Origin: Asterias amurensis
Lineage: Eukaryota; Echinodermata; Asteroidea; Forcipulatida; Asteriidae
NCBI RefSeq assembly: GCF_032118995.1
Contig: NC_092663.1
Location: forward strand, 8,370,001 to 8,434,000
Direction: 5' to 3'
DNA: 64,000 nucleotides
The notes under the pieces are model-generated. The model saw nothing but the letters and a program-made list of their open reading frames with translations, was not told the DNA's origin and did no database searches. A program made the translations under genes and the position numbers. This document shows, piece by piece, positions 2,366 through 54,533 of this stretch (its first letter is position 1; each line of letters opens with the position of its first letter).

Positions 2366-5300
2366 TCTTGAAGGACATATTACGTCATCCAAAGTTTAAG
2401 AACCCCTCAGTCAGCTCGTTGAGGGCGGGCAAGGACTGCCTGAGCTGTGCCGTGGTTGGCTCTGGTGGTATACTGAACGGTTCGCACGCCGGCCGCGAGA
2501 TCGATTCACACGACCTTGTTTTCAGGTAAGAGGTGGTTCAATGCATTGGACACTAATTGGTTAATATTCTAAATAATTGTTCGCATAAAAACCCAACGAG
2601 CAATGGAGAGTTGTTGATTTGCTCGGCCCCAGCGGCCAGTCTATCCAGGACCGCTGGGATGGGCTAATCGGCTTGCACAGATTCTTGTTCAGGAAGTACG
2701 TCATATGTGCAGTGCATAGAAATATGGTGCAGTGTGAGTGTGATGCATGATGGGGCTGCGCATTATTAAAGGGTCTATGTAACTTCTGTAGGAAAAAAAA
2801 CACAATGTCTACAGATTTACACTAAACTTACACAGTTTGAAGATAATGATAGTAGAAAGCTTCCCTGAAAATATTACGTGCTGAGGTGCTGTAGTTTTTG
2901 GGAAATGAGTAAAACAATGTCATGAAAATAATTTTCGTCTCATGAGACGAAAATTATTTTAATCATTTACAAACATATTTTCATGACATTGTTTTACTCA
3001 TTTCTCAAAAACTACAGCACCTCAGTAAGTAATATTTGAAGGGAAGCTTTCCACTATCATTATCTTCAAACCCTGTAAGTTTAATGTAAATCTATGGACA
3101 TTTTGAAAAGGTACCCAAATCCTTTAAACCAATGAGCGTGCATGATACGTTTGCCCATGCAAATGGCAAACGGGGCACTTTTTGGCCGCCTAAGTAAAAT
3201 TTGATTAAAAAAAAAAAAAAAAAAAATTGGTATCTGAAAGGAGAAAAGGAGTTGGCTTACTTTTCTGCCGCCAGGGTAAAGTTTGCCTTTAGGTGGCAGA
3301 CAAGCAGAGAGATAGAAAATTGCATTTTCACAAAACGTTGAATCTGCTTTTCTACTATTCTCATAGCAGATAAGAAATGACCACTTTTCGTCCGCCAGTA
3401 GTAAAGGAGATAACGTAAAACCTGCTTTTCTGGTAACAGAAAAGTAGAAATGCATTTTCGCAAAACGTTCAGTCTGATTTTCAGGTAGCAAAAAAGTAAA
3501 AAAGTAGAAAAATTCATTTACAAAGACATTTATAGTCATGCTGAAAAAGGGGTTGGACTTTGTTTGCATTCCAGATTCAATATGAAACCATTGGGGATAA
3601 CAATTATGTAAGCTGTTTGAAATAAAAACACAATGGGTATAGTCTAGGTCATGATATTTAATACGTGACGTCATCACCCTGCTATAGACGATGTGACCTA
3701 TGTTTACATTCAAACCGCCCTCTGTTGACAAAACACTATATACGTCATGTTTCGCCGGGCACTGAGTTGCGTAGTCATATAGTAAGATACACTTTCTAGC
3801 TGGCTGCCAAGACACAAAGGTTTTGCCCGGCGGTATGCGCGCGAATCATCTTATGGTTTTCGTGTGACGTCGGAGGTCACATCGTCTATAATAAGAGGTT
3901 AAACGATGACGAAACTAATGATGGAATCGCACATGTACAATGCAATGTAATACGAATGTCCACGCATCCAGGAAGAATTGTTTCCTATATAGGAATACAC
4001 GATCTGAGAATCATTACCGCGTTAATTCTCGTATTTAAATTGGGGACATAAAAACTTGTATCTTTTTACCAAAAGTGAAATGTTTCTCAACATGCCTTCT
4101 AACAAGACACTTCTTTTATTGACTTTTGTGATTATAGGTTGAACAAGGCGGTCACTTATGGAAAGCACGCCGACAACGTCGGACAAAAGACGAATGTGTA
4201 CATTTTCTTCCCCCAGTCGGCCCATCTCCAAACTTTGAAAACAACGGTAAATAAAGTGTTGTTTAATATTTTGTTTTAAAATAAAATTATTTTTTTGTTT
4301 TGTAGGAATCCTTTTTATGAAACTGGTTACTTGTCAGAACATAATATTTTGTTCACTCTTGAAATAAGTTAATATGGATGTATGACATAATGTAGGACTG
4401 CCGAGAGAGAGATGGATAAACTTGATGCATGCCATCATGTGGTGCTATGTGGTGAATGCATGTACACTTTTACATGAATATACAGTTGATTCTGCACACA
4501 GTTGTGCCATCCTACAAAACCAGTATACTTGCAGAATATTTTTCCAATTAATTTTCGTTTCTTTATTTCAGAATGTGAGTTTGTTGTACGCCATGTTCAA
4601 CTCATTTGATTTAACCTACGCTGCTGAAATGTTCGGGATTGGCAAGTAAGTATTGTATTAGACTTGTTCCCTGTCCTTATCTGCAGGGACAGGGACATAT
4701 GTTGGTGTTATGTATGTCATGTACGTCACAGACTTAACTGCGAATCTAAAGAACAATGAAGCCCTTTATATAAGAGTCGACTGAACTGATTTTGCCGTCA
4801 AGCTAGTAATAATATTGTTTTTTAATGTACAAAGCAAAGTTTACGTTTATTACGTGGTGGTTAAATGAATATGTTTTGTCCCCCCCCCCCACAGGAGAAA
4901 CCACAAGTTACGAGCTGACCCCACTAAACTCAAGATAATCCACCCAAATTTCTTCCGCTACGTCTTCGCCAAGTACCTGGATGGCAAATCCATGAAGCCC
5001 ACAACGGGTAAGTTTTAGGGACCGTAATGCGCGGACGCACGAGTCTCACGAGGATCAGGGCTCATTAAGCGCAACAACATTATGCTTACCAAAACAGGGT
5101 TACCAGCCATTATACCATATTACACGTACACTTGGTGACTGGTATGTTGCTTATTTCTGCTAGGCAAACAATTCTTAAGCAAGATCTTCTGCTTTTAAGC
5201 AGCTCTATTAAATTGGGCCCTGATGGCAAATTCACATGGTTACGACATTATGATGGTACCATCTCGGTCATTTCCCTGTGTTCAGTATAGCAGTAATGGA

Positions 5301-6237
5301 CCCTAATAAATTCATTGCACAAAAAAGAACCAGACTATATTTTTTTTCTTCCAGCCTCGGTTTGATTAAATTGAGTTTTATGTGAGAAAATCAGGATTTC
5401 CACACACCGTGATAATGGGCTTGAGGACCACATGCTTGGCTGAACAGACCTTAATTATTAGCAAGGTATTCAAGCAATGTGAGGGAAGTTATTCCCTTTT
5501 CTATGGTAACACGTTTTCAATGCTACCACTTTTAAAGGTTACCACTTTTCGAGGTAACCACTTCTCGAGGTAACCACTTTTCAAAGTAACCACTTTTCAA
5601 GGTAACCACTTTTCAATGCTACCACTTTTAAAGGTTACCACTTTTCAAGGTAACCACTTTTCAATGCTACCACTTTTAAAGGTTACCACTTTTTAAGGTA
5701 ACCACTTTTCAAGGTAACCACTTTTCAAAGTAACCCCTTCTTTAGATTACCACTTTTCTAGGTAACCCGTTTCAAGGTAATCCTTTCCAAGGTAACCCTT
5801 TTCAAGGTAACCACTTTCAGGGTCACCCTGTTGGTAACCACTATTCAGGGGTTACCCCTTTTCAAGGTAGTCACTTTTCACGAACAAAATAGCATTTTTT
5901 AAAGCAAGTTTTATGGTTTGTAGAATTTGGTTGTTTCTAATGATTGCCTTTTGTAATTTGGCACCCGTGCCACGATCTGAGACAAAATAATGAAATAAAT
6001 GTATTGTTTTTTCCCTACTCAGGGGCGGTTGCAGTCATGCTCGCCTTGCACCTATGTGACTCTGTAACCATCTACGGGTTTGGATACGATCCACGCTACA
6101 CAATGCATTACTACGACACGAGATTCATCAAGCGCTCGTACAAATCGACGTGGACGCATGACGTCGAAAACGAGAAAAGACTTTGGGACAAACTGCACGA
6201 TGATGGCGCCATTCGCTTTTTCAAGAGAGACACGTGA
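2366..6237 (+). CDS. GT29 sialyltransferase, ST6GALNAC1/2-like (gene A, 5' incomplete)
   Basis: Five exons joined by GT-AG introns and matching phases: 2366-2525, 4138-4246, 4572-4645, 4895-5007 and 6023-6237 (stop). They give 222 residues of catalytic domain. Exon 1 holds sialylmotif L ([13 protein letters not shown], then [12 protein letters not shown]). The last exon holds sialylmotif S ([18 protein letters not shown]), motif III HYYD and motif VS (H-x4-E in HDVENE). The family transfers sialic acid from CMP-sialic acid to O-linked GalNAc glycans in the Golgi lumen. No membrane anchor or stem exon was found upstream, so the 5' end lies outside the window or is lost. The 74-nt third exon is 33 nt shorter than the same exon in gene B, dropping a Pro-rich stretch but keeping frame. 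It could be a functional paralogue or a decaying copy; all motifs are intact. Confidence 0.86.
2766..3127. mobile_element. Palindromic TTAA MITE, family D
   Basis: Begins TTAAAGGGTCTATGTAAC and ends with the complementary GGTACCCAAATCCTTTAA. The two halves are inverted copies carrying AAAACTACAGCACCTCAG. It sits in intron 1 of gene A. Other copies are at 25616-25982, 45235-45662 and 55658-56016. Confidence 0.75.
3215..3540. repeat. Degenerate short tandem repeats
   Basis: The phrases GCATTTTCRCAAAACGTT, AAAGTAGAAA and CTGCTTTTCT recur several times at irregular spacing. An A-run precedes the block. No reading frame looks coding. It lies in intron 1 of gene A. Confidence 0.4.
3640..4130. other. 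Intronic stretch with small inverted repeats
   Basis: Contains a CRE-like TGACGTCA (3665-3672), a loosely inverted partner near 3865-3890 and an ATAGACGATGTGACC motif. Nothing here looks coding. Confidence 0.3.
5085..5221. repeat. Fragment of family H palindromic repeat
   Basis: The right end reads TTAAGCAGCTCTATTAAATT followed by GGGCCC. The same ends occur at 6330-6563 and 22512-23495. It lies in the last intron of gene A. Confidence 0.4.
5505..5880 (+). repeat. Minisatellite, ~16-18 bp unit
   Basis: About twenty head-to-tail units of the type GGTAACCACTTTTCAA, becoming more diverged toward the right end, with some higher-order repetition of units containing TGCTACCACTTTTAAAGG. It lies in the last intron of gene A. 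Every unit carries GGTAAC, which resembles a splice donor core. Confidence 0.85.
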
Positions 6238-6271
6238 CACGTGTTGTGGCCTTCTTTGTTGACACAGACAA

Positions 6272-6277
6272 AATAAA
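6272..6277 (+). promoter_or_regulatory. Putative poly(A) signal of gene A
   Basis: AATAAA lies 35 nt after the gene A stop codon. The position fits a short 3' UTR, but the hexamer is common in AT-rich DNA. Confidence 0.4.
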
Positions 6278-6329
6278 ACTCGCCGCGGATTGAGTCGATG
6301 TGGAATTCTGTTAAGCTTTGCCTTCACCA

Positions 6330-6563
6330 GGGCCCATTTGCATAGAGTTGCTTAAGCAACAAATCCTTGCTTTAGTAAAATCAGATTACCGGGCCAAGCC
6401 CCCACTCAATGTTATGCTAAGAACAGCTATATACCAGTGAGTCATAAGCAATGTATATATGGCATGACATTTTTGGCCAGTAACATGCGTAAAATAAATG
6501 AGCTATTTTCGTGCTTAAGCATTTTTTTTGTGCTTAAGCAGCTCTATGAAATTGGCCCCAGGT
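6330..6563. mobile_element. Palindromic repeat, family H
   Basis: The left end GGGCCCATTTGCATAGAG-TTGCTTAAGC is inverted at the right end as GCTTAAGCAGCTCTATGAAA-TTGGCCCC. The interior is unique. Related copies lie at 5085-5221 and 22512-23495. Confidence 0.6.
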
Positions 6564-6824
6564 CAGCAGCAGGATTCTCCTGTCTACATCTGCGAGGATA
6601 AAGACGGGTACTTTCTTTTCAGAACCAGAGATGTCATTGGATTGAATGACGTCATTGGATAAACGTGCAGTGACGTAAGCTTTCTATATCTGTCCGAATC
6701 ATCTTGAAAAAGATGCTTGTCTTAGGCGAGTTAGGGGTCAAAGACGCAGAAACTGCATAAATGTCGCTAACATGCATTACATCGGCAAGGTATTTTGTCA
6801 GAATTTCAGTATTTTACTTCCTGC

Positions 6825-7175
6825 TTAAAGGAACACGTTGCCTTGGATCGGTCGAGTTGGTCTTTGAAAAGCGTTTGTAACCGTTTTTTATAAAATGCAT
6901 ATGGGTAGAAAGATGTTGTAAAAATAGAATACAATGATTCACACAAACATGCCTCGAAAATGCGTGGTTTTCCTTTTACCTCGTCGACTAACACGTCGGC
7001 CATTTATGGGGGTCAAAATTTTGACTCCCATAAATGGCCGACCATGTTAGTTCGCACAGTGGAAGGAAAACCACGCAATTTCGAGGCAAACTTGTGTGGA
7101 TCATTGTATTCTACTTTTAAAACATCTTTTCAACCATATGCATTTTATAAAAAACGGTTACAAACGCCATATCAA
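6825..7175. mobile_element. Palindromic TTAA MITE, family B
   Basis: Starts TTAAAGGAACACGTTGCC. Long complementary arms meet at a centre where CCATTTATGGGGGTCAAAAT meets its inverted partner. The right tip is diverged or lost. Fuller copies lie at 12408-12799 and 48907-49154. Confidence 0.7.
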
Positions 7176-10685: not shown

Positions 10686-10691
10686 GTGTCT

Positions 10692-11075: not shown

Positions 11076-11178
11076 GGCCCAGTGATCGGGGGGGGGGGGG
11101 TAATAATGTTGGAAACACTTTGATACGCCTTTCGGGCGGTGATAAAGTGCTATTTTATCTAAAAATCGATATCTATTT

Positions 11179-16533: not shown

Positions 16534-16564
<31 letters not shown>

Positions 16565-16637: not shown

Positions 16638-17014
16638 ATAAAGGCAGTGGACACTATTGGTAATTACTCAAAATAATTATTAGCACAAAACCTTACATGG
16701 TAACGAGTAAATGGGAGAGGTTGATAGTATAAAACATTGTGAGAAACGGCTCCCTCTGAAGTGACGTAGTTTTAGAGAAAGAAGTAATTTTCCACGAATT
16801 TGATTTCGAGACCTCATGTTGAGAATTTGAGGTTTCGAAATCAAGCATCTGAAAGCACATATCTTCGTGTGACAAGGGTGTTTTTTTTTCATTATCTCGC
16901 AACTTCAACGACCGATCGAGCTCAAATTTTCACAAGTTGGTTATTTTTATGTATATGTTGAGATACACCAAGTGAGAAGACTGGAAATTGACAATTAAAT
17001 AGTGTCCACTGCGT
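16638..17014 (-). mobile_element. Family A TTAA MITE
   Basis: Left end AAAGGCAGTGGACACTATTG, right end ATAGTGTCCACTGC followed by diverged sequence, so the right TTAA is lost. The internal body is typical of the family. Confidence 0.85.
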
Positions 17015-17770: not shown

Positions 17771-17811
17771 TAAACCTGATCTTCACGATTTTTGTATTTT
17801 TTTTTTTTAAA

Positions 17812-19013
17812 TTATAGAATATTGGTGTTCGTGGGTTGGCCCTGGAATGGTTTAAGAGCTACTTAACACACAGAAAACAATTTGTTTCGTATAATTCTAG
17901 ACAATCATCCAATAAATATATTTCTTGTGGAGTTCCTCAAGGTTCCGTATTAGGTCCTCTATTGTTCATTATCTATATAAATGATATTTGTAATTCGTCT
18001 AGTTTGATCTCCTTCTGTATGTTTGCAGATGATACAAGCCTTTTATATAAACACCACAATGTTGACGTAGCTATACAAAACCTTAACGTAGAGCTCGTTA
18101 AAATAAGTAACTGGCTTCTAGCAAATAAACTGTCAATTAATGTTCTGAAAACAAACTATATCATTTTCTGTGCTAGGCAAAGAAAATATGTGCGCCATGT
18201 ACCCCTCTGTTTAAATGGCAGTGCTCTAAACCAAACAAAGAGTTGTAAATTCTTAGGTATTAATATTGATGAGAACTTGTCCTGGAAAAAACACATACAT
18301 GTTTTAACCACCAAAATCTCAAAAAATGTTGGTATTATGAATAGATTGAAATATTTTCTACCGCAAAAGATTTTGTTAACTTTATTCAATGCATTCATTC
18401 TTTCATATTTAAATTACGCAATATTATCCTGGGGTCACGGAAAGGCACTATGTAACAAACTTTTACTATTGCAAAAGAAAGCCGTTAGAATTATTACAAA
18501 AGCCAATTATCTTTCTCATTCAGCTCCTATATTTGCCGAACTTAAAGTGCTCAAATTTAATGACCTGTATCGTCTGAACTTAAGTAAATTCATGTTCAAG
18601 AACAAATACCGCCTGTTACCTAATAGCTTTAATGAAATGTTTATTTTAGCTTCATCATTACATTCCTATGGTACTCGTAAAGCATTGAAGGGGGATCTGT
18701 ATATTAATCACAATAGAACTTCAATTCATAAAAATAGCGTTGTGCAACGAGGAGTAGAATATTGGAATAGTCTTCCCATACATTTTAAGCAACCTTCTAC
18801 AATCAGTACATTTTCAAGAAAACTTAAACACCACTTGCTAGATACTTATCTGTAATGCCATCAAAATCTAATGTTGTTCTTTTTAATCGTTTGCTTTGTT
18901 TGGTCTCAGCTGTCAGCTTGTGTATACCTGTGTGTCTGTTTTGTCTCTCACATAGAGAATACTTTGGTACACTAGTAGTAATCGGCGTCTTAATTCACGA
19001 AAGCGAGATGTCG

Positions 19014-21862: not shown

Positions 21863-24800
21863 ATGTTGTCATTTTGTTCAATTCGGCTACGCACCTTTTA
21901 TTTAGCAATTATTGCCTCTGCTTCTGTCCTGGTTTGGGTAACTTCGCGGCAGCACGCACCAAAGCTGTTGTACCCGTGGGAAGCCCAGAAGGCCGACGAA
22001 GTGGTAATCGAGAGGTGGCGAATTGGTAGCCGCGAAGAGACAGTCTCACATAATGATACTGTTCAGAAGGAACTGATGCGATTGCAGAAGCTTGTGATGA
22101 CGATGAAAGAGTCTATGGGAAACCAAACCAGACCGACAGAGGAGCACAGAGAGGTAGGATTAGTGTCCGAAATGACATTTGTTTCCCTCAAATTCCTTTT
22201 ACATACCGTTTTAAATGTTATGCTCGCGCGCCTGCACATATTTTGAACTATTGGCTCTAGGTATAGGCTGAAGGTCTTTACAGCAAATGTGTGAGCGTTT
22301 AACCTCTGTGACCTGGCACTTGACTTCCTTAACTTGACACTCAACTTCTAGGACTTGAAACTTGATTTATGTTAGGATTCCAGTCTTGACCTTTTGGGTT
22401 TAGGACTTGACCTTTAGAAACTTGAGATTTGACCTCTATGACTTGAGATTTGACCTCTACGACTTAGACTCGACCAATAAGACTTGAGACTTGACCTTTA
22501 TGGCGTGAGGCCAGGGCCCAATTTCATAGAGCTGCTTAACGGTAAGCAAATTTTTTCGCTTAACGTAGCAAAAATAATTGCTTAAAACCATTCGGATTCC
22601 ATGCTAAACGTACACGAGCTTAAGCACGTAAACAATCTGCGCGCGGAGATTTTATATCGTTTGCTTAAGCAAAACAGAAGAAGGCAGTGTATTTTGCACT
22701 GTGTGCATGGCCTAGGGCTGCTTAACGGTAAGCAAATATGTTGGCTTAACGTAGCAACAAAAATTGCTTAAGCGTAAACCTATTTCACCAGCGGTTGCTA
22801 GCTTAAGCACGTAAACAAACTGCGCGCGCAACATTTTAGATCGTTTGCTTAAGCGAAAAAGAAGAAAGTACTGACAAAATGGCGGGCGAAATAAATGCGG
22901 AGTGCACTCGAGTGGCGATAAAAAAAAAGTCATCACCTTCTGTGTCTGATATGTATTATTTGTAATGGTTCAAAGTGCCCCTCGAAAGGTTTACACACTA
23001 ATTTGAAAGTAAACAAGAAGATAATTATACATGAATTGTACAGCATGATTCTGAAGCATTTTAGACACTCGTTTATTCGCTACACCTACCATACAAACGC
23101 ACGTACAATCACCGCTTTGCCGGCACAATAACATCGTTTGCATTTAGTGTTGCACTATGCGCTGTGTGAATAGGGTGCTTAAGCAAAATAGAGGCTTTAA
23201 GGACCCTTTTTGTTTGCTTACCTATAAAAGCAAAAATCAAGGGTATGAAATGAAAATTTACTAGGTGCGCCCGTTAAGCACAAAATCGACCGTTACGGGA
23301 TGCAGCTCTTTGAAACTGGGCCCGGCGCTTAAACAGGGTGCTTAAGCAATGGGACTTTAAGGACCCTTTTTGCTTGCTTGCTTTGCCGTTTTAAGCAAAA
23401 AACCTTGCTTAAGCAAGGCTATGAAATGAAAAACTTGCTAGGTGCACCCGTTAAGCACAAAATCGACCGTTAAGCAGCTCTATGAAATTGGGCCCAGATC
23501 TCAAAACGAGACATTCCCTCCAGGACTGTTGCGTAATGTTCGTTTAACCCATTTACACTTATCGTTAAAGGCAGTGGACACTATTGGTAATTACTCAAAA
23601 TAATTATTAGCGTAAAACCTTTCTTGGTGACGAGTAATGGGGAGAGGTTGATAGTATAAAACATTGTGAGAAATGGCTCCCTCTGAAGTGCCATAGTTTT
23701 CGAGAAAGAAGTAATTCCCCACGAATTTGATTTCGAGACCTCAAGTTTAGAACTTGAGGTCTCGAAATCAACTATCTAAACGCACACAACTTCGTGTGAC
23801 AATAGTATTTTTTCTTTCATTATTATCTCGCAAGTTCGATGACCGATTGAGCAAAAATTTTCACAGGTTTGTTATTTTATGCATTTGTTGGGATACAGCA
23901 ACTGTGAAGGCTAGTCTTTGACAATTACCAATAGTGTCCACTGCCTTTAAAGGCAGTGGACACTATTGTTTATTACTCAAAATAATTGTAAGCATAACAA
24001 CCCATTGAGTAGCGAGCAACGGAGAGCTGTTAGTGGTATTACACATAGTTATAAACGGCTCCCTCTGAAGTAACCTCTGGATTTTGAGAAAGAGGTAATT
24101 GTCACTCAGAATATTGAAAGACTCCAGACCTGAAGCCTTTTTTAGGCATCTGAAAGCACACAGATTTGTGCAACAAGGATGTTTTTTTCAGCCATTTGTC
24201 TCTTGTAACTTTGATGACTAGATGAATCAACATTTTTGCAGGTTTGCTGTTTTATGCATGACCGAAGTGAGAATAGTGGTCTTTGACAATTACCAAAAGT
24301 GTCCCCTGCTTCAACGTAAGGCTGCTTTAAGTTGTCAAGAAAGGGCAATAAAATGCAATCGTGAACGTTAGAATTGAATATGGTGTTTGTACTCGTTTAT
24401 AGAACAAATAAAAACTGTAACGATATCCAACCCCCCCCCTCAAAAAGGGGGGGGGGGGTCGGGTCCATTGACAACATTTGGATACAAACCCTTTAGAAAT
24501 ATGCGATAAATCGTTTCTCAGAATCAAATGTTTTTTTATTCCTTCTTTTTATGTTATTGATTTCCAGTCAGCGGGGAATTTCAGACGATATAGTTGAACT
24601 GGATGCTTACTGTACTAGCATTACCATATTTATAACAAGCATTTAAAGGATAGAAACTTTAAAAAAAATCACTTGCAATGAAATCGATACAAAAATCATT
24701 GTTAATACAAAACAGGATTCAGGTGTCGAGGATACTGTCATGGGAAAACGGCATATGTCAAATTAGTACGTGTAACATCGGAAGACAACAATACTCTGCA

Positions 24801-27800
24801 TGGCATATACGTACAATGATTGCAAATTAACGTTACTTTATGGTGTCGCCTCACTATTGGGCCGTAGTTATGTTTTATACCCCCATCACTACGTTCTGAA
24901 AAGTTTTGTCGTGGATGGTGCAAGTCGTGGTTATTCACACAATCACTCTGTTATCGCGATACACGCCCGCTCCCGCCTCGCCGCGCACGTATCAATTTAA
25001 CCGCACGAGAGCTGCAATACAACGGAAGGTTCCTGCCCATTTGAAGCTGTCACAAAAGAAATGACGTGTGTGTGACACCTAAATGTAGCCCGAGCCCAAA
25101 ATGTAGCCCACAGACGTGCCTTTATTAATAACCCACATACCAGGGTTTAAAAATTGGGCACAGCGTCACATGTAATGTAGAAGTTCCTATGCATGGTAGA
25201 ATGTTAGATAAACATTCAATCGTGCTAATAGTGATTAAACTTTCAATCAAATAAAATACTCCCAATGAATGGTTGCTTTGTTTTAATATTCATCACAAGT
25301 TTTGAATAGTTGGCTGTACACAATGTAACGAACTTGTGACATTTTTTGTGTGCATTTAACCTCGGTTGCCAAAAACTGGGGTTGTGGCGTTCCAGTATTG
25401 TCTCAGCCGCCCGCTCAAGTCCCACTGTATTTGTTTTTTAAAGGGGTAAATATTTCGAAATATCTCGAATGTAAAAGTTTGACGTCTTTTTACGATCATT
25501 TCAACACAAAATAATTATCATAATCATATAAAGAGAACTTATAAACCGCCTTACAACTAGACCATCAACCCTAAAGCGCTTAGCAAGGAACTAAGTACTG
25601 GATTAAACTTATTTTTTAAAGGGTCTATGTACTTTTTGTAGGACCCAAAACACAATGTCCACAGATTTACATTAAACTTACACAGTTTGAAGATAATGAT
25701 AGTAGAAAGCTTCCCTGAAAATATTATTTGCTGAGGTGATGTAGTTTTTGAGAAATGAGTAAAACAATGTCATGAAATAAATTTTCGTCTCAGTGATCAT
25801 GAGAATTAGTAAATTATTTTAGCATGTAAAAACGTATTTTCATGACATTGTTTTATTCATTAGCTTCTCAAAAACTACAGCACCTCAGCGAGTAATATTA
25901 TCTTCAAACGGTGTAAGTTTAATGTAAATGTAAATCTGTGGACATTGCGTTTTGTGTTACAAAAAGTACCCATATCCTTTAAAGATCGCCTAAGCAATAT
26001 TAAGCATTCAACATACTTAGATTCACAACCAAAATGTCAGAGTCTAAACTCCCATAACGATTGACCTGTTGGGTCACTCCACCCAGGGGGTGTCTGTGTG
26101 TGCATGGTGTCCACTTACTTTGCAAGCAGAGGTTGCGTCTGCTGTTGTATGCTACGTGCAATATCAAGCCTAGTTGACACAAATATTATATAGATTTTAA
26201 TGTTGATGAATAGATTCGAAGAAGATACAAGTAGGTCGGTGTCTTTGTACCACCAAAATTCAAATCTCTTCTCAAAACTTGTGTTATCATGACTCAGGTT
26301 TTCAAAGACTAATTTTGTTGTGTCTGTTTTTCTTTCGATTTGTTTTGTTTTTACTGCGCCTTGAACACCAAGCAGGGTAGATATGTCCGCATGACAAGTG
26401 TTGTTGTTATTGTTGTTATTAAGTTTTCATTTTAAAGACAGAGGACACTATTGGTAATTGTCAAAGACCAGGCTTCTCACTTAGTGTATCTCAACATATG
26501 CATGAAATAACAAACCTGTGAAAATTTGAGCTCAATTGGTCGTCGGAGTTGCGAGATAATAATGAAAGAAAAAACACCTTTGTCACACGAAGTTGTGTGC
26601 GTTTAGATGGTTGATTTCGAGAACTCAAGTTCTGAACTTGATGTCTCTAAATCAAATTCGTGGAAAATTACTTCTTTCTCGAAAACTACGTCACTTCAGA
26701 GAGAGCCGTTTCTCACAATGTTTTATACGATCAACCTCTCCCCATTACTCGTAATACCAAGTGAGGTTTTATGCTGATAATTATTTTGAGTAATTACCAA
26801 TAGTGTCCACTGCCTTTAAGTATTGAACAAACAAAAGCATCTGCCTAAAAGATGAGCGGTAGTTCTAAAACAAGAAAATATACATATATAAGAATAATAA
26901 TAATTATTATTTTTAATTGTACCAACAAAAAGTAAACGATAAGTGGTAGTTCTAAATTAGAAAATGAATTATTAAATCACAGCCCGTATTTTAAAGCCAT
27001 GAACAAACAATAGGGATGGTGGCAATGCCATACACTTCAAACCAACCATTCAGTGCATGAACAGCATTTTACCGGTAGAGGGCGCTATGGTGTTCTTAGA
27101 ACAAAATGATCGTTCCAGCAAACAAAGACTTAACTATAAGACATGTTTGCGGTAACAACAAGATAATATATTTTATCTTGTGCAGACTTACCAGGTAAAT
27201 ATCCATTACAGTTTAAGTCTGCTGCCACCTAGCGTCCAAAATAGTCCCCCTAGCTGCAGAATGACATTCGCCCTGTCCTTATCCGTAAATCACGAGCCTC
27301 GAAGTGTGACGTCAGATATAGTGGCAATGACTCACCTATCCTTTCATGCTTCAAGGCTGCTGAATCGGACGAACAATGTTTCTACAGTTCATGTTTTTAT
27401 TCAGCTCTCATATATAGAACTACCTCAAACCCTGCTTACGTTTTCTTTCTTTTTAAAAAAACATTCTAAATTGATCTATAGCACCAGAAATGTTCAAAGA
27501 CTCTGTCATCTCTAATTAAATACTCCAAGTGGTTCAGAGAGCGTTACCGGCCGGACGTCAAACTCTTCTTGGACGAGGATGACACCCGTCACTATGACAA
27601 TCTGTCGTCTAACACACTTCCGTTCGGGTTCAAAGGTCAAAATAAAACCGGTAAGAAAGTCTATTTTTTCATACAGGCAGGGCACCAGTCTAATTGGTTC
27701 ACTTGCACCGATTTCACAGCCGCCCTCCATAGTCCGCCATTTTGGAATTCAAGTTGCAAAAACTAACCTCATATCTATAGAGTAGGCGAATACCACACGA

Positions 27801-30800
27801 GCAGTTCCTACAACACACATGCATTGTGACTTCCAAAATCGCGCATAAAGCAAACGAGTCATGACGTCATGTGAAGTTGGTATATAGTTTATGATGTGGC
27901 GCATATCTTAACATAACATGGAATTAATTTGCACAATATAAATGAACGCATTTATTTCTTGAAAGTTTACCTCCATTTCTGTCTCTTTCCAGTTCTCAAT
28001 CAGATGTTACTGCACGAGAATTTCACTAACCCATCGATTCACAAAAAGAAGGCAGGGAGCAAGACGGGGTGTGTCCGTTGCGCTGTGGTAGGGTGCGGTG
28101 GCATTTTGAACGGCTCCGGAGCTGGCGATGAAATCGACAGTCACGATTACGTCTTTAGGTGAACAACAATTACATAACTTGGTTAGGCATTTTTTGATCC
28201 AGAAACCGTGTTACATTAAATAATGCGAGAGACACTGCATCCTCTACTGATCTGTGTTTCTTGTAAGCAAACTGATAAGGATCAAGAGCAGGTGGAATAT
28301 TAGCTAAAATATGTTGCCGTACCAGAGACTCTAAACACTTTGCAACAATTGACGTCAAAGCAACTGGTCGGTAATCATTTAAACAAACAGGTGTACGCTT
28401 GGGCACAGGAATGACAAATGAATGTTTAAATACCTTAGGAACATGACAAATCTTCAATGACCAATTAAAAATAATACAGAGAATGTCACACAGTTCATTT
28501 TTGCATGATCGCAAAAGGCGAGAGGAAATCCCATCCCGACCAGGAGCCTTCCTCTCGTTTAGTTTGGACAAGACGCGGCGGGTATCGTCCAACGAAACCT
28601 GAAATGGAGGATGAAGGTCATCGCTATAAGGTTTACAGAAAAAATGTCGCCCGACGGCCTTTTAAACAAATACCTCTGGTTACAAAATATAGAAGTGTTC
28701 CAACTGAATGCAACCATTCAAATTAACTTGATATTAATAATAATGGCAAATTCACAATAAAGGGCGCCACCAATGTTTGCCTCAGAGAAACAGTTATTAT
28801 AGCGCATTACAAACAGTATATTCTTTCACAGAAAGGCATGCATTTGCGAGATATATTTGTACGATGTATGGTATGCCTTTAAGTCGGTTTATATATTTAC
28901 CCAACATTGTTGGGTATAATTTTAGTCAACAGCTGTGAGTTCATAGACCCAACATTGGTCAAAGTATTGGTTGTTTTGCAAAGTAAACAAACCAATCCTG
29001 TACAGTTTTCACGTAGAGACATTATTGTTTCTCACTTGGTGTATCTCAACAAACCTGTGAAAATTTGAGCTCAATTGGTCATCGAAGTTGCGATATAATA
29101 ATAAAAGGAAAAACACCCTGGTCACACAAAGTTGTGTGCTTTCAGATGCTTGATTTTGAGACCTCATATTCTAAACTTGAGGTCTCGAAATCAAATTCGT
29201 GGACACCTTCTTTCTCGAAAACTACGTCACTTCAGAGGGAGCCGTTTCTCACAATGTTTTATACTATCAACCTCTCCCTATTACTCATTACCAAATAAGG
29301 TTTTATGTTAACAATTATTTTGAGTCCACTGCTTTTAAAGTTACACAAGTTATGGAAAAACTTAAAAATAAATGTGTATGATTCAAAATCTATTTTTGGG
29401 AAAGTCTAAAAACGAGCTTAACTTCAAATTCGGGATTTTCCAACATACGTTTTGGACGTAGAGGACTTGTGGCCATTGGTGATGATGCTGAAGTAATAAT
29501 GGAAGGCATTTGATGACATAATGTGGCAGCGCAGACTTAACAAGTAAATCCATTGTTTTAGTAATGTGCGCATGCTCAATTGAAACTAAACAATGGAATT
29601 TTACCTAGTAAGTCTACTGCCACCTTGTATTCCAAAGTTTCAAATTATTAAATGGACTCATGAAAATAATATGTTGTTGCCCTTTTAATCCAAAGAGTGA
29701 ACCGTGCTTTAACGAAAGGGAGATTCGCCAACGACGTCGGAAAACGGACAACATTTTACACCTTTTTCCCCGAGTCTCAAAACATCCAGGATGTCGAAGA
29801 CAAGGTTAGATGTCTTTATCTTGATATGGAATTTACACTTTGTGTTTAAAGGGAAGGTACACGTTTGGTAATGGTCAAAGACCATGCTTCTTACTTGGTG
29901 TGTCCCAACATAAGCATAATATAACAAGCCTGTGAAAATTTGAGCTCAACTGGTCATCGAAGTTGCGAGAAAATTATGAAAGAAAAAAAACCTTGTTGGA
30001 CGATTTGTTTGCTTTCAGATATGAATAAAAGACTTCTGGCTAGAGGGAGCCGTTTCTCACAATGTTTTATACTATCAACAGCTGTCCAATGGTCGTTACC
30101 AAGTCAGTTTTTAATTTAATATTATTTGTTTTGGGTAATTACCAAACGTCTACCTCTCCATTAACTGGCAGGAAAGGTATGCGTTTGTAATTACTCACTC
30201 TCAAAATTAATGACAATAGGAACTATTTTGGTTTAGAAGCCCAAGCCGTGGATTCAAAATGGCAGACGCGCATTATTCGGAGGTGCCTGCCTTCTTCTGC
30301 TTTGCGCAAGTGATTTATTGGCCCTTTTCAACAATCCGGCAATAGCCTTTTCCTATTCTGGACACGGCCGTATTGTTCTGCATTTCGTTTGTTCTTCGTT
30401 AAGGTCCGAGTTAACCGAGACATTGTTTTCTTCCTATACTCACAGAATGTTCTTCTGTTCTTTACGATGTTTAAGAAGTACGACGTAGAGTATGGGTTGA
30501 ACATGATTAAAGACGTTCCACCTCCACCTTACATATCCAGAGGAAAAGAGCAGTAAGTTTGAAATGTTTTTTTATTTAGATTAAGTTTTTTTTTTTGCAT
30601 TTAAAACCAGAACATTTTCTTTTCACCAATTAACAAACTTGGCAATTCCATATCTATACCTCGTCTCATCCTCATGAGTAATGAATCTTGTAAGTGAAGT
30701 GTCATCTGCATACTTGACCATGGAACACTCGTGGCATTACTACATCTAAGATCGCTTGTATACAATGTGAACAGTACTGGGGATAAAACATATCCCTGAG

Positions 30801-33087
30801 GGGCGCCTGTATTGGTATGAACAGTTTCAGACACTGACTGCATCAGTCTAACTCTCTGTGATCTATTTGTCAAGAAATCGTTTATCCATAAAATAAATAA
30901 CGGGTTAACATTCATCCCCCTCAGCTTGCCAAACAGAACATGAGGCTGGATCAAGTTGAAGGCCGAAGAAAAACCCACGAACATTTACTATTATTTATTG
31001 ATTATTTTATTCCAAGCTCAATAAAATTACACACACATAAGAGGTATAAGCAAGATATGGAGGAGGAACATGTAAATTTTCCTATAACCTAAAGGTAAAG
31101 TCAGCCGAAAAAAAATATTTATAAAAGGTACAGACCTGCCATATACAATGTACGGGGGGGGGGGGGGGGTAAACAATAACAAAGATATCATATTAGTAAA
31201 ACAATTAAAAACTTAATGGTACGGGCATAATTCAAGATGGATTGGAATGTGTATAAAACATAAAGGCTGGGTAAAGGCATAGAGTGACTAATTAATTCCA
31301 ATTTTAACTTTGAAGAATTTCCGTGATTATTTTGTTACATTGTTTTAAATGGGACCAACACAAAATGGCTCTGAACTAAAAGAGATTTAATTTTGACGTT
31401 AAAATAAAACCCTGTCATTTGCCAACTAAATGGCGTTGCCTATCCTAATTTACTAACTGATAGCAATCTCACAGTCTTCTATGGTGGTCTGGAGATCTTG
31501 CATTCCACCATTCCAGGGGGCACCATGAATGTGTGCACGTATGGTCAGGTGACATGTTTCAAACAATTACTGCAGGACAGACTAAAATACTCGTTCATGT
31601 ACGAGTCAATCGGAAATTCCCTAATATAAGCGTATTCTCTTAGAAATCAGGGAAATTGAGATTTTCACTAAGTTTATACGCATATATTATTAGCCACTGA
31701 GTTACTAAGTGGCAGTGTGGCACACTAAGGGTTAATGGCATACATTTAGGGGTGGTTTCAGCCTTTATATGCAAAACTAATATGTTTGTTTTGTGTTTGT
31801 TTTTCATCAAAACAGTTTAATCCGCAAGCCCGCATCAGATCCACGGAGGTTAAAAATCGTTCACCCCGATTTTTTCAAATACGTCTTTCACACTTATTTA
31901 GATGACAAATCCGCTCGGCCAACTACAGGTAAAACAGCAGAACCGATGCCTTTTAAAGGCAGTGGACACTATATGGTAATTGCCAAAGACCAGTCTTCTC
32001 ACTTGGTGTATCTCATCATTGCATAAAAAAAAACATGAAAATTTGAACTCAATTGGTCGTCGAAGTTGCGAGATAATAATGAAAGAAAAAAAAAAAACCT
32101 TGTCACACGAAGTCGTGTGCATTTAGATGGTTGATTTCGAGACCTCAAATTCTAAACTGGAGGCCTCGAAATCAAATTCGTGGAAAATTACTTCCTTCTC
32201 GAAAACTACGTCACTTCATAGAGGGAGCCGTTTCTCACAATGTTTTGTACTATCAACCTCTCCCCATTACTCGTTACCAAGTAAGGTTTCGTGCTAATAA
32301 TTCTTTTGAGTAATAACCAATAGTGTCCACTGCCTTTAAAGGAGCTGTAGTGTAACGATCAAAGCTGATTTTACTTTACGTGAACTCTCACACAGCTACA
32401 CTCTACGCGCGTGCTTTCCCCCTGGGCTCCGTATCATCTATAGACTTGATTCAAGTCCCTATCTTGTGCGACTAGCAAATACAATGTAGCTATTGTGGTC
32501 CCGTGGCACAGGTTTGGGGAATGCCGGCCGCGCAAAAATAGCTGACGTTAGGCGATACGGGACTGAAAATAAAAGGACTTTGACTCACGGAATTGGGACT
32601 TGAGTCGAGTCTAGATCTATGAAGAGCGCTCGCGCGCAGAGTATAAGTGGGTGAGAGTTCAAAGGTCTGGGTACAGCCATATGCCTGCTTTCTCACCACG
32701 GCACTGTGCCGTGGTCGAGTTACTCAAAACACTTTTCAAACGAGGCACAGAGTCATTTGTCCTTCAGCATTTTATCAATTAATTGTAATAACTAACGTGG
32801 ATAATCAGGCTGCTGCCACCTAGCGTTACAAATACACTCATTGAACCAAATACATTCTTTAACTTTATACAGGTGCGCTGGTCGTGGGCCTAGCCTTACA
32901 TATATGTGATGAGGTGACAATATATGGGTTTGGCTACGACCCACGCTTCACCATGCACTACTACGACACCAAGTTTGTCACCCATACACAAGCATCGACG
33001 GGGTCTCATGACGTGGACAACGAACGAATGCTCTGGATGAAACTGCATGATGAGGGCGCTATCAGGCTTTTCAAAAGAGACGTTTGA
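21863..33087 (+). CDS. GT29 sialyltransferase, ST6GALNAC1/2-like (gene B)
   Basis: Seven coding exons: 21863-22153, 27482-27650, 27993-28158, 29696-29804, 30446-30552, 31816-31928 and 32873-33087. All introns are GT-AG, phases agree, and the total is 1170 nt, 389 residues plus stop. Exon 1 starts [10 protein letters not shown], has one membrane anchor at about residues 11-27 and a long charged stem: a type II Golgi enzyme. Exon 2 carries LPFGFKGQ. Exon 3 has sialylmotif L ([16 protein letters not shown], then [10 protein letters not shown]). The last exon has motif S ([18 protein letters not shown]), HYYD and HDVDNE (H-x4-E). Sequons include NQT, NFT and NGS. Length matches vertebrate ST6GALNAC2 (~374 aa). 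The introns hold several MITEs and two antisense RT fragments. Exon 1 is the least certain join: its donor (GAG|GTAGGA) fits phase 0, but no homologous exon was compared. The last exon is duplicated at 34530-34744. Confidence 0.87.
22260..22511 (+). repeat. Short degenerate tandem repeat
   Basis: About ten repetitions of a ~20-25-nt unit of the form ACTTGA-(C/G)-A-TTTGACCTCTA-TG, in intron 1 of gene B. Confidence 0.6.
22512..23495. mobile_element. Cluster of family H palindromic repeats
   Basis: Opens GGGCCCAATTTCATAGAGCT (22515-22534) and closes AGCTCTATGAAATTGGGCCC (23476-23495). Inside are further internal copies of GCTGCTTAACGGTAAGCAAA, CTTAAGCACGTAAACAA and GACTTTAAGGACCCTTTTTG, so at least two or three elements are nested or tandem. 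Intron 1 of gene B. Confidence 0.65.
23565..23950 (-). mobile_element. Family A TTAA MITE (full length)
   Basis: TTAAAGGCAGTGGACACTAT to ATAGTGTCCACTGCCTTTAA, 386 bp. It is one of the cleanest copies and a good reference for the family: inverted ends, TTAA at both tips, central palindrome around AGTTTAGAACTTGAGGTCTC. Its right TTAA is the left TTAA of the next element. Confidence 0.9.
23947..24314 (-). mobile_element. Family A2 MITE, back to back with previous copy
   Basis: Starts TTAAAGGCAGTGGACACTAT at the shared TTAA, then diverges to the A2 body (ACCCATTGAGTAGCGAGCAA ... CTCCAGACCTGAAGCC). The right end GTGTCCCCTGCTTCAA is mutated. Confidence 0.8.
24315..25615. other. No exon recognised (intron 1 of gene B)
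   Basis: Contains a C-run/G-run inverted pair at 24432-24460. No reading frame has a domain I recognise; two overlapping 66-codon ORFs on opposite strands near 24740-25000 are likely chance. Confidence 0.35.
25616..25982. mobile_element. Palindromic TTAA MITE, family D
   Basis: TTTTAAAGGGTCTATGTACT on the left and GTACCCATATCCTTTAAA on the right; the arms carry TTTACATTAAACTTACACAG and its complement. Intron 1 of gene B. Confidence 0.8.
26305..26425 (+). mobile_element. LINE 3'-end fragment
   Basis: TAATTTTGTTGTGTCTGTTT ... CTGCGCCTTGAACACC ... GCAGGGTAGATATGT, ending in GTTGTTGTTATT repeats. It matches the 3' UTR of the minus-strand LINE at 60985-62263, so both belong to one family. Confidence 0.7.
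26432..26819 (+). mobile_element. Family A TTAA MITE
   Basis: TTTAAAGACAGAGGACACTA to GTGTCCACTGCCTTTAA; typical body. Intron 1 of gene B, about 660 bp upstream of exon 2. Confidence 0.85.
27170..27240. repeat. Family E repeat fragment
   Basis: CAGACTTACCAGGTAAATAT and AAGTCTGCTGCCACCTAGCG are the two inverted end segments of a short dimeric repeat also seen at 29524, 33450, 43572, 46740 and 50636. Confidence 0.55.
28165..28600 (-). pseudogene. Reverse transcriptase N-terminal fragment
   Basis: A 140-codon minus-strand frame shows [17 protein letters not shown] (RT motif 1), [16 protein letters not shown] (motif 2) and [14 protein letters not shown] (motif 2a). It ends ...QKMPNQVM at about 28170, just before the motif A aspartate would appear. 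It lies antisense in the intron after gene B exon 3 and begins only a few bases past the exon's splice donor at 28159. It is a LINE fragment without a catalytic centre. Confidence 0.8.
29028..29340 (+). mobile_element. Family A MITE, left-truncated
   Basis: Begins TTTCTCACTTGGTGTATCTC and ends TTTTGAGTCCACTGCTTTTAA, with a small deletion at the right tip. Gene B intron. Confidence 0.75.
29524..29632. repeat. Family E dimeric repeat
   Basis: The left half GGCAGCGCAGACTTAACAAG and the right half TTACCTAGTAAGTCTACTGC-CACC are inverted copies around a ~60-nt centre. It lies about 65 nt upstream of gene B exon 4. Confidence 0.6.
29849..30165 (+). mobile_element. Diverged TTAA MITE related to family A
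   Basis: Ends are TTTAAAGGGAAGGTACACGT and ACGTCTACCTCTCCATTAA, so the terminal repeat differs from family A, while the interior (AATTTGAGCTCAACTGGTCA, GGAGCCGTTTCTCACAATG) is shared. Gene B intron. Confidence 0.7.
30601..30984 (-). pseudogene. Reverse transcriptase middle fragment
   Basis: The minus-strand frame starts [18 protein letters not shown] (motif A region, with the usual Asp of DFSSAF changed to Gly), passes [19 protein letters not shown] (motif B), and then loses frame where YADDT should be. It is antisense in the intron after gene B exon 5. It starts almost where the fragment at 28165-28600 stops in RT protein order, but lies on the wrong side of it for one contiguous insertion. 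Confidence 0.8.
31000..31790. other. Intronic sequence without recognised features
   Basis: Contains a G-run at 31155-31170. No coding or repeat family identified. Confidence 0.3.
31953..32340 (+). mobile_element. Family A TTAA MITE
   Basis: TTTAAAGGCAGTGGACACTA to GTGTCCACTGCCTTTAA, starting 24 nt after gene B exon 6. Its right half (from 32181) is inside the duplicated block. Confidence 0.85.
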
Positions 33088-33143
33088 ACTTCGGAAATCG
33101 TTTTCCTTAATATATCCCTTTTAAAATATGTTCCTTTTGTATT
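32181..33143 (+). repeat. Segmental duplication, copy 1 (contains gene B last exon)
   Basis: 963 bp found again at 33838-34800 with constant offset 1657. I compared long stretches of both copies and saw no difference. It contains the right half of a family A MITE, a family G repeat (GATTCAAGTCCC ... GGGACTTGAGTC), and gene B exon 7 with its acceptor and stop codon. Confidence 0.9.
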
Positions 33144-33837
33144 TTAATATTTTCTCTTTCATTCAGACTTGGGAGTTACACGGATACAGTTTGGTGCAAT
33201 GTTTTTAAATAGATTAAGGTGTATACATGATGCAACACTTTACAGGTCTATGTGGTTCAAGCTTACGTCTTTTAAACGTTTGCCCGAGCCCCATCCCCAG
33301 CATTGGATGTCATATCTCGTGAAACGTTCCAGATCCCGGTGTCAAAGACAAATCTATCCCCCATGCTCTTATATAGCGCACAAATCCTTAGGTGCTAGAT
33401 CGAGGCACTTGTGGAGAGGTGGAACATTGAGTAAGAATCGATACAATGGAAGACTTTGGAACGCTAGGTGGCAGCAGACCTACCATTGTTTACGTAGTTC
33501 TGAACATGGGCACATACATGACCGAGAACAATGGAATGGTAAGTCTGCTAAGTCCCAAAAGTCCCCCCTTGGCAACACTTTACAGATCTATGTTGACGCC
33601 GGTTGAGCTGACGTTTTATAAACATTTGCCTCGGCCGAAAAAGGGTGACGATTCAAAAGAGGGCGATATCAATAGAAGTTTGACCACAGTTCGCCATGTG
33701 GGGAACACGGAATCTCCTGCCACACCGGTCGAGGTAACGTCTTTAAAACAGTTTGCCCCATCCTCATACATTTCGTGAAATGTACCAGATACAGGTGTGA
33801 AGGGAGAAGTCCTGCCCACCCGGAGATTCGGCCCCCC
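33144..33837 (+). other. Spacer between the duplicated blocks
   Basis: Contains two related segments, GCAACACTTTACAGGTCTAT (33233) and GCAACACTTTACAGATCTAT (33571), each followed by a TTTTAAACGTTTGCC-like phrase, and a family E repeat at 33455-33550 (CTAGGTGGCAGCAGACCTAC). ORFs here overlap the repeats and look non-coding. Confidence 0.45.
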
Positions 33838-34800
33838 TGGAAAATTACTTCCTTCTCGAAAACTACGTCACTTCATAGAGGGAGCCGTTTCTCACAATGT
33901 TTTGTACTATCAACCTCTCCCCATTACTCGTTACCAAGTAAGGTTTCGTGCTAATAATTCTTTTGAGTAATAACCAATAGTGTCCACTGCCTTTAAAGGA
34001 GCTGTAGTGTAACGATCAAAGCTGATTTTACTTTACGTGAACTCTCACACAGCTACACTCTACGCGCGTGCTTTCCCCCTGGGCTCCGTATCATCTATAG
34101 ACTTGATTCAAGTCCCTATCTTGTGCGACTAGCAAATACAATGTAGCTATTGTGGTCCCGTGGCACAGGTTTGGGGAATGCCGGCCGCGCAAAAATAGCT
34201 GACGTTAGGCGATACGGGACTGAAAATAAAAGGACTTTGACTCACGGAATTGGGACTTGAGTCGAGTCTAGATCTATGAAGAGCGCTCGCGCGCAGAGTA
34301 TAAGTGGGTGAGAGTTCAAAGGTCTGGGTACAGCCATATGCCTGCTTTCTCACCACGGCACTGTGCCGTGGTCGAGTTACTCAAAACACTTTTCAAACGA
34401 GGCACAGAGTCATTTGTCCTTCAGCATTTTATCAATTAATTGTAATAACTAACGTGGATAATCAGGCTGCTGCCACCTAGCGTTACAAATACACTCATTG
34501 AACCAAATACATTCTTTAACTTTATACAGGTGCGCTGGTCGTGGGCCTAGCCTTACATATATGTGATGAGGTGACAATATATGGGTTTGGCTACGACCCA
34601 CGCTTCACCATGCACTACTACGACACCAAGTTTGTCACCCATACACAAGCATCGACGGGGTCTCATGACGTGGACAACGAACGAATGCTCTGGATGAAAC
34701 TGCATGATGAGGGCGCTATCAGGCTTTTCAAAAGAGACGTTTGAACTTCGGAAATCGTTTTCCTTAATATATCCCTTTTAAAATATGTTCCTTTTGTATT
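33838..34800 (+). repeat. Segmental duplication, copy 2
   Basis: Apparently identical to 32181-33143. The left junction is after GATTCGGCCCCCC, within the internal part of a family A MITE; the right junction is at CTTTTGTATT, followed by CCGAGGATTCC. Confidence 0.9.
34530..34744 (+). pseudogene. Duplicated last exon of gene B
   Basis: The same 215 nt as gene B exon 7, including the acceptor TTTATACAG, motif S, HYYD, the HDVDNE motif and the stop codon. It would be spliceable to exon 6 and encode the same C-terminus, so it could serve as an alternative terminal exon with a different 3' UTR, or be an inert copy or an assembly duplicate. Confidence 0.75.
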
Positions 34801-35154
34801 CCGAGGATTCCGAGATTCCGGGTCAAGCTGACCCAGGAAGTGGTTAAAGAGAAGAATCTTGAATCGGATTATGCATAGTTTGGACTAATTTCTGGCTTCA
34901 ATTTGACAAAGATTTCCAGGTCATATTGACCCAAAAAGTGGGTCAGGCCCTATGGATTCCGGATCCGTGTTCTTAATGACCCGGAAGTTCTAGAGTGTTA
35001 GGCAAAGTTTGTAAAGAAGATTTTTGAAGAAAACAAAACTCTGGTGCAATGGAATTTAAAAATTGTATAATTATTTTGAATATCTTAGATTGCCAATTTG
35101 TATATACTGGACATCTATTATGCAAGATAGAGAACTTGTCAATAAAATGTTACA

Positions 35155-35400
35155 AAATTAGACTACCTTTGACTATTTGTTTTTATACAAGGTGTTTTGA
35201 TACAAATAATATCTACTTTGGATGTGAAAATTAGATAAAAGTATATTATAAACTCCGTTAAATACAAGAAGATAATCACAAACATATAGCTCTGTCGAGG
35301 GGTTGGCTGTGGGTGTATGTGACTGTTTGATGGGACGGGGTGGTCTATTGTACATCGCCGGTCATTAAGAATTAAATGAGTAAAGAGAAGTACCTGACGG
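35155..35400 (-). repeat. Dispersed repeat shared with 55255-55490
   Basis: On the minus strand it reads TACTTCTCTTTACTCATT ... CCCATCAAACAG ... CCCTCGACAGAGCTAT ... ACACCTTGTATAAAAA. The copy at 55255-55490 is in the opposite orientation. Confidence 0.65.
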
Positions 35401-35427
35401 AAAGATGAGCCTTTATCATGGCCGTTG

Positions 35428-35722
35428 TTACCACCCCCAAGTCTCGCTGATAATATAAATGTAAAGAGAGGGAGTGGTGGTAGGGGGAGGGGCGGTGATG
35501 GACATGTAGTAGACCTCGCCGGTGTCATAGGGAACGTTCCTGTTCCCCGGAGATTCTGTGTGCCCCCCCCCCCCCATTACCACCCCCAAGTCTCGCTTAT
35601 AATATATATGTAAAGGGAGGGAGTGGTGGTAGGGGGGCGGTGATGGACATGTAGTAGACTATGCCGGTGTCATAGGGAACGTTCCTGCCTCCCGGAGATT
35701 CTGTGCCCCCCACCTAAATTGG
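35428..35722 (+). repeat. Two tandem units of ~150 bp
   Basis: CCACCCCCAAGTCTCGCT opens both units (35431 and 35580), and CATAGGGAACGTTCCTG-type sequence and CCGGAGATTCTGTG close both. They are GC-rich and purine-biased (GGGAGTGGTGGTAGGGG). Confidence 0.75.
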
Positions 35723-36174
35723 GGAAAAAACATGTGCTGAGGAAGGGTAATGATTAAAAAGATGGCGATATGACAAGAGGTTTGCACATAGTTCGCCTTA
35801 TGTGGAGGGGTTGCACAGAATCTCCTGTCACACTGGGATCAGAAGATTGAACTTTTGGCTTGCAGTAAATATATGGCAAACATGACATAATGGCTTGCCA
35901 ACATGATCAGCGAAGCGCTCCGTGTGTGACCTCAGAATCTTCCATGATGCCCATTTACGGATTCCTAATTCGTCAAGGATACTCACACTTTAAAGCTACT
36001 GCGGATGCGGCAATTTTATATGTGACACTCATAAATTAAGGGTCGTTACGCAATTCTGATGAATAATTGGTTTTCTCCTACTTTATTATCTGTAAAAGGC
36101 GAAGACAGAGATGAAGCTTGTTTATAGAGCTATCCTCATACAATGAAATTATCAAATATCTGAAACACTTTTTT

Positions 36175-37343: not shown

Positions 37344-37930
37344 ATCATTAGGTGTTCGGCTAACAGCCGAACAACTATTGTTAGGTGTTCGGCTACCGAA
37401 CAACTATTGTTATTGTTATGTTTTTTTTAGGTGTTCGGCTAAGGTGTTCGGCTAAAAGCCGAACAACTATTGTTATTGTTATGGTTTTTTAGGTGTTCGG
37501 CTAACAGCCGAACAACTATTGTTATTGTTATGTTTCTTTTAGGTGTTCGGCTAACAGCCGAACACCTATTGTAATTTAGGTGTTAGGCTAACAGCCGAAC
37601 AACTATTGTTATTGTTATGTTTTTTGTTTTTGTTTTAGGTGTCCGGCTAACAGCCGAACAACTATTGTTATTGTTATATATTTTTTTAGGTGTTCGGCTA
37701 ATAGCCGAACAACTATTGTTAGGTGTTCGGCTAACAGCCGAACCACTATTGTTATTGTTATGTGTTTTTTTAGGGGTTCGTCTAACAGCCGCACAACTAT
37801 TGTTATTGTTATGTTTGTTTTTTAGGTGTTCGGCTAACAGAGCCGAACAACATTTGTTATTGTTATGATTTTTTTTTTTTTTTTTAGGTCTTCGGCTAAC
37901 AGCCGAACAACTAGTGTTATTATTATGTTG
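37344..37930 (+). repeat. Hairpin minisatellite
   Basis: About a dozen units of the type TTAGGTGTTCGGCTAACAG-CCGAACAACTATTG-TTATTG-TTATG-T(n). Each unit holds a perfect short hairpin, GTTCGGCT-nnn-AGCCGAAC, followed by a TTATTG spacer. Unit length varies from ~28 to ~65 bp. Confidence 0.9.
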
Positions 37931-37989
37931 TTTTTTTTTCTCGCGTTCTTCTTTCCCTGCGAACCTTCTCCAGCAATTTTGAACAAAAG

Positions 37990-39431: not shown

Positions 39432-54533
<15,102 letters not shown>

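Follow-up and report, generated by a model that had tools for sequence, protein, structure and literature searches.

How many sialyltransferase genes lie together at this sea star locus, how are they related and what might they do? The window, i.e. the whole stretch of 64,000 nucleotides that was analysed (C16:8370001-8434000), had been read in an initial annotation as a local expansion of ST6GALNAC-like genes, three within about 52 kb. Enzymes of family GT29 are inverting sialyltransferases of type II topology that work in the Golgi with CMP-sialic acid as donor. The reading that we hold, as a whole, to be fairly probable is that of an old array of six GT29 genes, belonging to the group that contains ST6GALNAC1/2 and acting on GalNAc-type acceptors, probably at C-6. 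Below, C-numbers denote contigs, L-numbers GT29 loci and G0 to G5 the genes of the array. Contig C23 (16,427 bases) marks the organism as an echinoderm and likely a sea star: its first 6 kb, translated with the echinoderm and flatworm mitochondrial code, yield cox1, nad4L and cox2 on one strand and nad2 and nad1 on the opposite one, as we named the genes from the translations. Sea stars have nad1 and nad2 inverted with respect to cox1, and 22 chromosomes.

The three window genes (G1, G2 and G3), which we located by motif scanning and by comparing the three regions with one another, are where they had been placed, two on the plus strand and one on the minus strand. Their PF00777 scores are 190.9 bits (3.9e-56), 203.2 bits (7e-60) and 212.4 bits (1.1e-62), respectively, for a Pfam cut-off of 23. 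A GT29 profile scan of the whole genome (491.5 Mb in 23 contigs) gave 88 exon-level matches, and those on C16 run on past both window edges. A tblastn search of the joined 214 kb formed by the window, 50 kb to its left and 100 kb to its right uncovered three extra GT29 genes outside the window, together with exon A of G1. The count of three is thus right for the window, whose genes are the middle half of the array, but the array itself holds six and spans about 171 kb (C16:8348020-8518971). By tblastn, neither the 28 kb left of G0 nor the 15 kb right of G5 contained another GT29 exon. All six catalytic-domain models have GT-AG introns, equal phases and neither internal stop nor frameshift (Table 1), so that the common phases claimed for the window genes extend to the entire array.

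Table 1. Genes of the array, exons in the window and the copied segment of G2. Positions are those of the window unless preceded by C16.
Feature	Position	Strand	Basis or remark
G0 catalytic-domain model	C16:8348020-8353700	+	spliced model
G1 catalytic-domain model	C16:8369266-8376237	+	spliced model
G2 catalytic-domain model	C16:8397488-8403087	+	spliced model
G3 catalytic-domain model	C16:8419412-8409432	-	spliced model
G4 catalytic-domain model	C16:8443384-8436442	-	spliced model
G5 catalytic-domain model	C16:8476532-8518971	+	spliced model
G1 exon A	~0.57-0.73 kb before window	+	tblastn, spliced model
G1 exon B, 160 nt, motif L	2366..2525	+	spliced model
G1 exon C, 109 nt	4138..4246	+	spliced model
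G1 exon D, 74 nt	4572..4645	+	spliced model
G1 exon E, 113 nt	4895..5007	+	spliced model
G1 exon F, 215 nt, motifs S (most), III, VS, stop	6023..6237	+	spliced model
G2 exon A, 163 nt	27488..27650	+	spliced model; other candidate acceptor 6 nt upstream
G2 exon B, 166 nt, motif L	27993..28158	+	spliced model
G2 exon C, 109 nt	29696..29804	+	spliced model
G2 exon D, 107 nt	30446..30552	+	spliced model
G2 exon E, 113 nt	31816..31928	+	spliced model
G2 exon F, 215 nt, motifs S (most), III, VS, stop	32873..33087	+	spliced model
G2 copy 1, 963-bp source segment	32181..33143	+	left flank continues repeat family
G2 copy 2, exact 963 bp, second identical exon F at 34530-34744	33838..34800	+	sequence comparison
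G3 exon F, 218 nt, motifs S (most), III, VS, stop	39432..39649	-	spliced model
G3 exon E, 98 nt	41558..41655	-	spliced model
G3 exon D, 110 nt	42137..42246	-	spliced model
G3 exon C, 109 nt	46819..46927	-	spliced model
G3 exon B, 160 nt, motif L	47332..47491	-	5' part and acceptor within 82-bp tandem duplication
G3 exon A, 163 nt	49250..49412	-	spliced model
G3 candidate first exon: ATG, hydrophobic anchor, phase-1 GT donor	54398..54533	-	read from sequence

Exon lengths are largely shared. Across the array, exon C has 109 nt in all six genes, exon A 163 in five (172 in G0), exon B 160 in four (166 in G2, 157 in G5), exon E 113 in five (98 in G3) and exon F 215 in five (218 in G3), while exon D has 107, 74, 107, 110, 110 and 110 nt from G0 to G5. 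The recurrence of exons of exactly 109, 113, 160 and 215 nt, once claimed for the whole trio, stood up to a check of the splice sites in all three genes for 109 nt, but only in G1 and G3 for 160 nt and in G1 and G2 for 113 and 215 nt. The differences among the window genes are multiples of three, hence phases are kept. The gene span drawn earlier ends at 54533 on a plausible signal-anchor exon of G3, but it leaves out exon A of G1, which precedes the window. Candidate signal-anchor exons were found for G3 by direct reading, making it the only one seen within the window, and for G1, G4 and G5 by a scan for phase-0 donors and strong hydrophobicity; the same scan, limited to such exons, gave none for G0 or G2. 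From the gene models of seven and eight exons proposed at first we could thus retain the catalytic exons, but the full models are unconfirmed, with stem exons unplaced and no first exon found for G2.

Are these genes all functional? The core residues of motifs L, S, HYYD and H-x4-E are invariant in the six genes, as had been noted for three; the residues making up motifs L, S, III and VS are also seen in the PDB alignments, and the histidine of H-x4-E is the catalytic one in GT29 enzymes. The names of these four motifs follow a section of PMC5811610. Protein identity between array members is 45-60%. Over the 15 gene pairs, pS is 0.74-0.84, i.e. saturated, and pN is 0.26-0.36; dN/dS was obtained for a single pair (0.11), and this ratio is not numerically meaningful here. 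We considered a recent duplication of the array genes and discarded it, synonymous sites being saturated in 14 of the 15 pairs and dS being 3.0 in the remaining one. Saturation indicates that the array is old, and six frames still open after so much change speak for purifying selection over a long time. One might speculate instead that the array is a collection of relics, in which functional genes have survived by chance alongside pseudogenes in a stretch dense with repeats. The stretch is indeed rich in repeats and holds reverse transcriptase pieces, G2 has a duplicated last exon and G3 carries an 82-bp tandem duplication at an acceptor. But all six catalytic models are open with good splice sites in spite of saturated synonymous divergence, and 88 of the 296 alignment columns are invariant across the six genes, which makes this account very improbable. 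The genes of the old array would have arisen by local duplication with inversions and would be held by purifying selection.

The last exon of G2 deserves a separate word. Two copies of a 963-bp segment, comprising part of the last intron, the acceptor and exon F, are without a single difference (0/963). The repeat that continues into the left flank of copy 1 occurs many times nearby and is absent from the flank of copy 2; hence copy 2 is the derived one. Either this duplication happened very recently, or the copy is an artefact of the assembly. A second transcript end through the copied exon is possible and would yield the same protein. There is no AATAAA or ATTAAA in 33088-33837, and there are three in 34745-35800. 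The 82-bp tandem duplication of G3 (47442-47605) spans the acceptor and the start of exon B; an in-frame reading by eye from its upstream acceptor meets a stop, and the downstream acceptor was kept.

The DNA around the genes has features of its own. A repeat of a few hundred nucleotides (16639-16889, 23565-23828, 32029-32339 and others) is present in dozens of copies in both orientations, and occurs throughout the array and in other loci that were read. Short palindromic units (TTCGGCTAACAGCCGAA) are spaced by about 35-60 nt in 37348-37939, and about 96 copies of TATTAT fill 42492-43069 in a long G3 intron. The reverse transcriptase pieces (PF00078), from mobile elements, lie at 17836-18855 and 61127-62263.

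Common introns had been put forward as a sign of expansion, and here the evidence turned out weaker than it seemed. The B/C break after VFR is common among the GT29 genes of this genome. The E/F break at P-T-T-G, in phase 1, is found in all six array genes, and we initially regarded it as specific to them; this was dropped, since nine ST8SIA-like loci, of which two are near-identical copies, have a candidate AG|GT acceptor at that very position. A further 17 GT29 loci read through the site, among which the ST3GAL-like L045 and L046 break after CDEV instead. Gene structure at motif S was compared with the C9 loci of this genome rather than with vertebrate genes: in L042 and L044 the E/F site is uninterrupted, whereas the array splits at PTTG. 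The introns of the array thus reflect an inherited GT29 structure. They agree with local duplication without proving it, and adjacency together with the clade described next is better evidence.

To place the array, we took GT29 exons from 27 loci of the genome outside it. The tree has 31 rows, made up of the whole array, 22 of these loci and three solved enzymes, namely human ST6GALNAC2, pig ST3GAL1 and human ST8SIA3. These three are the only vertebrate rows, ST6GAL and the other vertebrate subfamilies being left out. Also left out were L004, whose sequence is near-identical to that of L003 as far as shown, and the ST8SIA-like L031, L032/L033, L034 and L035 of C13, represented by L036 and L037/L038. 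A reduced tree of 25 rows further omits L039, L005, L007, L008, L040 and L037/L038. Rather than falling into unrelated GT29 subfamilies, the window genes belong to one clade of six array genes (support of 96/91 with 31 rows and 92/92 with 25). The C9 loci, four C1/C2 loci and human ST6GALNAC2 form a wider group with this clade (98/95 and 86/88). Outside this group fall the ST3GAL-like L045 and L046, nine ST8SIA-like rows and, in the 31-row tree, L005, L007 and L008, labelled by motif and presumably ST6GALNAC3-6-like. For the larger tree the program gave a warning of long branches meeting where the ST8SIA-like and ST6GALNAC3-6-like rows come together; the reduced tree, without the latter, keeps the array clade, but the wider group is less well supported there. 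The local expansion is therefore borne out by neighbouring genes forming one clade, but its duplications are old and the window trio are not mutual closest kin: as a clade of their own, they were rejected (AU test, p 0.019). The groups submitted to AU tests were named only after the tree was seen.

The trees support a place for the array within the wider ST6GALNAC1/2 group, apart from ST3GAL, ST8SIA and the ST6GALNAC3-6-like genes, but we are unsure of its exact position inside it. One could take the array for the sea star's own expanded ST6GALNAC1/2 ortholog group, using Tn and core-1 acceptors as in vertebrates. The best PDB match of G2, the one query used, is human ST6GALNAC2 (6apj, 128 bits, before ST3GAL1 with 114, ST8SIA3 with 71 and ST6GAL1 with 39), and a clade of array, C9 loci and human ST6GALNAC2 is not rejected (AU p 0.145). 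However, it is the C9 loci (three in the larger tree, two in the reduced one), not the array, that pair with human ST6GALNAC2. The C1/C2 genes come next, and the array joins only after them (97/92 and 88/83). Besides, human ST6GALNAC2 shares a YANHD stretch with the two C9 last exons read, and this stretch is absent from the array; the lack of the E/F intron in L042 and L044 speaks the same way. We thus find such orthology unlikely: the array is probably not a direct counterpart of ST6GALNAC1/2, and the label "ST6GALNAC-like" is sound at the level of the group with human ST6GALNAC2 but does not establish orthology with ST6GALNAC1/2.

Less likely still is that the array has its closer kin in ST3GAL or ST8SIA and that its enzymes form other linkages. 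Its E/F intron site is common to the nine ST8SIA-like loci, its motif III ends in HYYD as in ST8SIA3, and a clade of the array with ST3GAL is rejected by a narrow margin (p 0.048). Yet both trees put the array with ST6GALNAC2 at the supports given above, the PDB scores of G2 favour the same enzyme, and the common intron may come from a shared ancestor. Among other unions, that of the array with the C1/C2 genes is borderline (p 0.058) and that with L039 has p 0.043. A part of PMC5811610 places ST6GalNAc1/2 near ST3Gal and ST8Sia and apart from ST6GalNAc3-6, and our tree agrees with this for ST3GAL.

Several other GT29 genes came to light. The four C1/C2 genes (L024-L027), with a YGMG, YGIG or FGMG motif, make up a separate clade next to ST6GALNAC2 and the C9 loci. 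L039 (C3:279900-284000) is a long-branched gene that stands outside all families of the tree; its last exon contains GFGYD...HYYD. A second cluster, ST8SIA-like, counts six loci in about 90 kb (C13:20785000-20874000, L031-L038), and the exons read from L031 and from L032/L033 are near-identical. A motif-L match on C8 (23989862-23990056) lies inside an open frame of 1768 aa. Outside C16, 21 scan matches reach the end of the profile (position at least 269); all are in loci that we examined, and every one of these loci stays apart from the array, as judged by the tree or, for five of them, by sequence alone. There may be further array-type genes elsewhere, since the scan is incomplete, having missed the last exons of two C9 genes that were found by further reading, and 12 matches were not read. 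One of these covers profile positions 170-238 (C7:3935656) and 11 are at motif L (C3:15504261, C4:3041689, C4:24234562, C7:3948440, C7:3938746, C8:23989862, C11:13068436, C13:16475638, C13:16491252, C13:16467878 and C15:155836).

What would such an array do? Most likely, judging from their sequences, its genes encode Golgi sialyltransferases acting on GalNAc-type acceptors. The proteins would be type II Golgi enzymes moving sialic acid from CMP-sialic acid to GalNAc, probably at C-6, and their diverged stems and motif flanks might allow a division of labour between tissues or between acceptors, i.e. O-glycans and GalNAc-bearing gangliosides. The acceptor is suggested by kinship with ST6GALNAC2 and by the chemistry of starfish gangliosides, which, as one part of PMC8228791 describes, carry sialic acid on C-3 and C-6 of GalNAc: a ganglioside of Evasterias retifera has 8-O-methyl-NeuGc at GalNAc C-3, and its disialo form has NeuAc at C-6 in addition. 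In the portions of the literature searched, no gene is assigned to this sialylation at C-3 or C-6. Through this chemistry, the idea that the array brings acceptor preference and glycan diversity is plausible. A bolder version seems to us doubtful: here the array would be a GT29 subfamily that vertebrates lack, and its members would share out the starfish-type linkages, among them those of sialic acid to both C-3 and C-6 of GalNAc in gangliosides. Six open, chromosome-placed genes offer a concrete set of enzymes for the known sialoglycans of starfish. We found no published starfish GT29 gene array, judging by titles, and no paper on ST6GALNAC in Acanthaster, both within the open-licence literature.

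The array also adds to a branch of GT29 whose history is poorly charted. A figure legend of a 2023 review (PMC10225777) holds that the history of ST6GALNAC in deuterostomes cannot yet be reconstructed, and the same source names, in the part available, a single st6galnac3/4/5/6 gene in sea urchin. According to an excerpt of another review (PMC6994554), the sialyltransferase homologues of sea urchin are still to be enzymatically characterised.

Comparison with solved enzymes and with known expansions puts these genes in perspective. Human ST6GALNAC2 shares motifs L, S, III and VS and the tree group with the array, but differs in motif III, which reads YGFITSNYWKFSDHYFE in 6apj and YGFGYxxRxTxHYYD in the array. 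The difference pointed out in the initial annotation is thus confirmed on the PDB sequence, but YGFG and HYYD also occur in L048, one of the two C9 ST6GALNAC1/2-like last exons read, so the two alone are not specific to the array. Pig ST3GAL1, the second-best solved relative of G2, has HHYWE in place of HYYD, and ST3GAL1/2 are a nearby family in the tree. The expansion is real and of a kind already known: as part of PMC2564942 describes, the ST8Sia EX genes of sea urchin and amphioxus are divergent GT29 genes, mostly tandem duplicates. They resemble the array as GT29 genes of invertebrate deuterostomes, and the E/F site of the array is also found in the ST8SIA-like loci of this genome. Yet, ST8Sia EX genes belong to the ST8SIA family, whereas the array groups with ST6GALNAC2.
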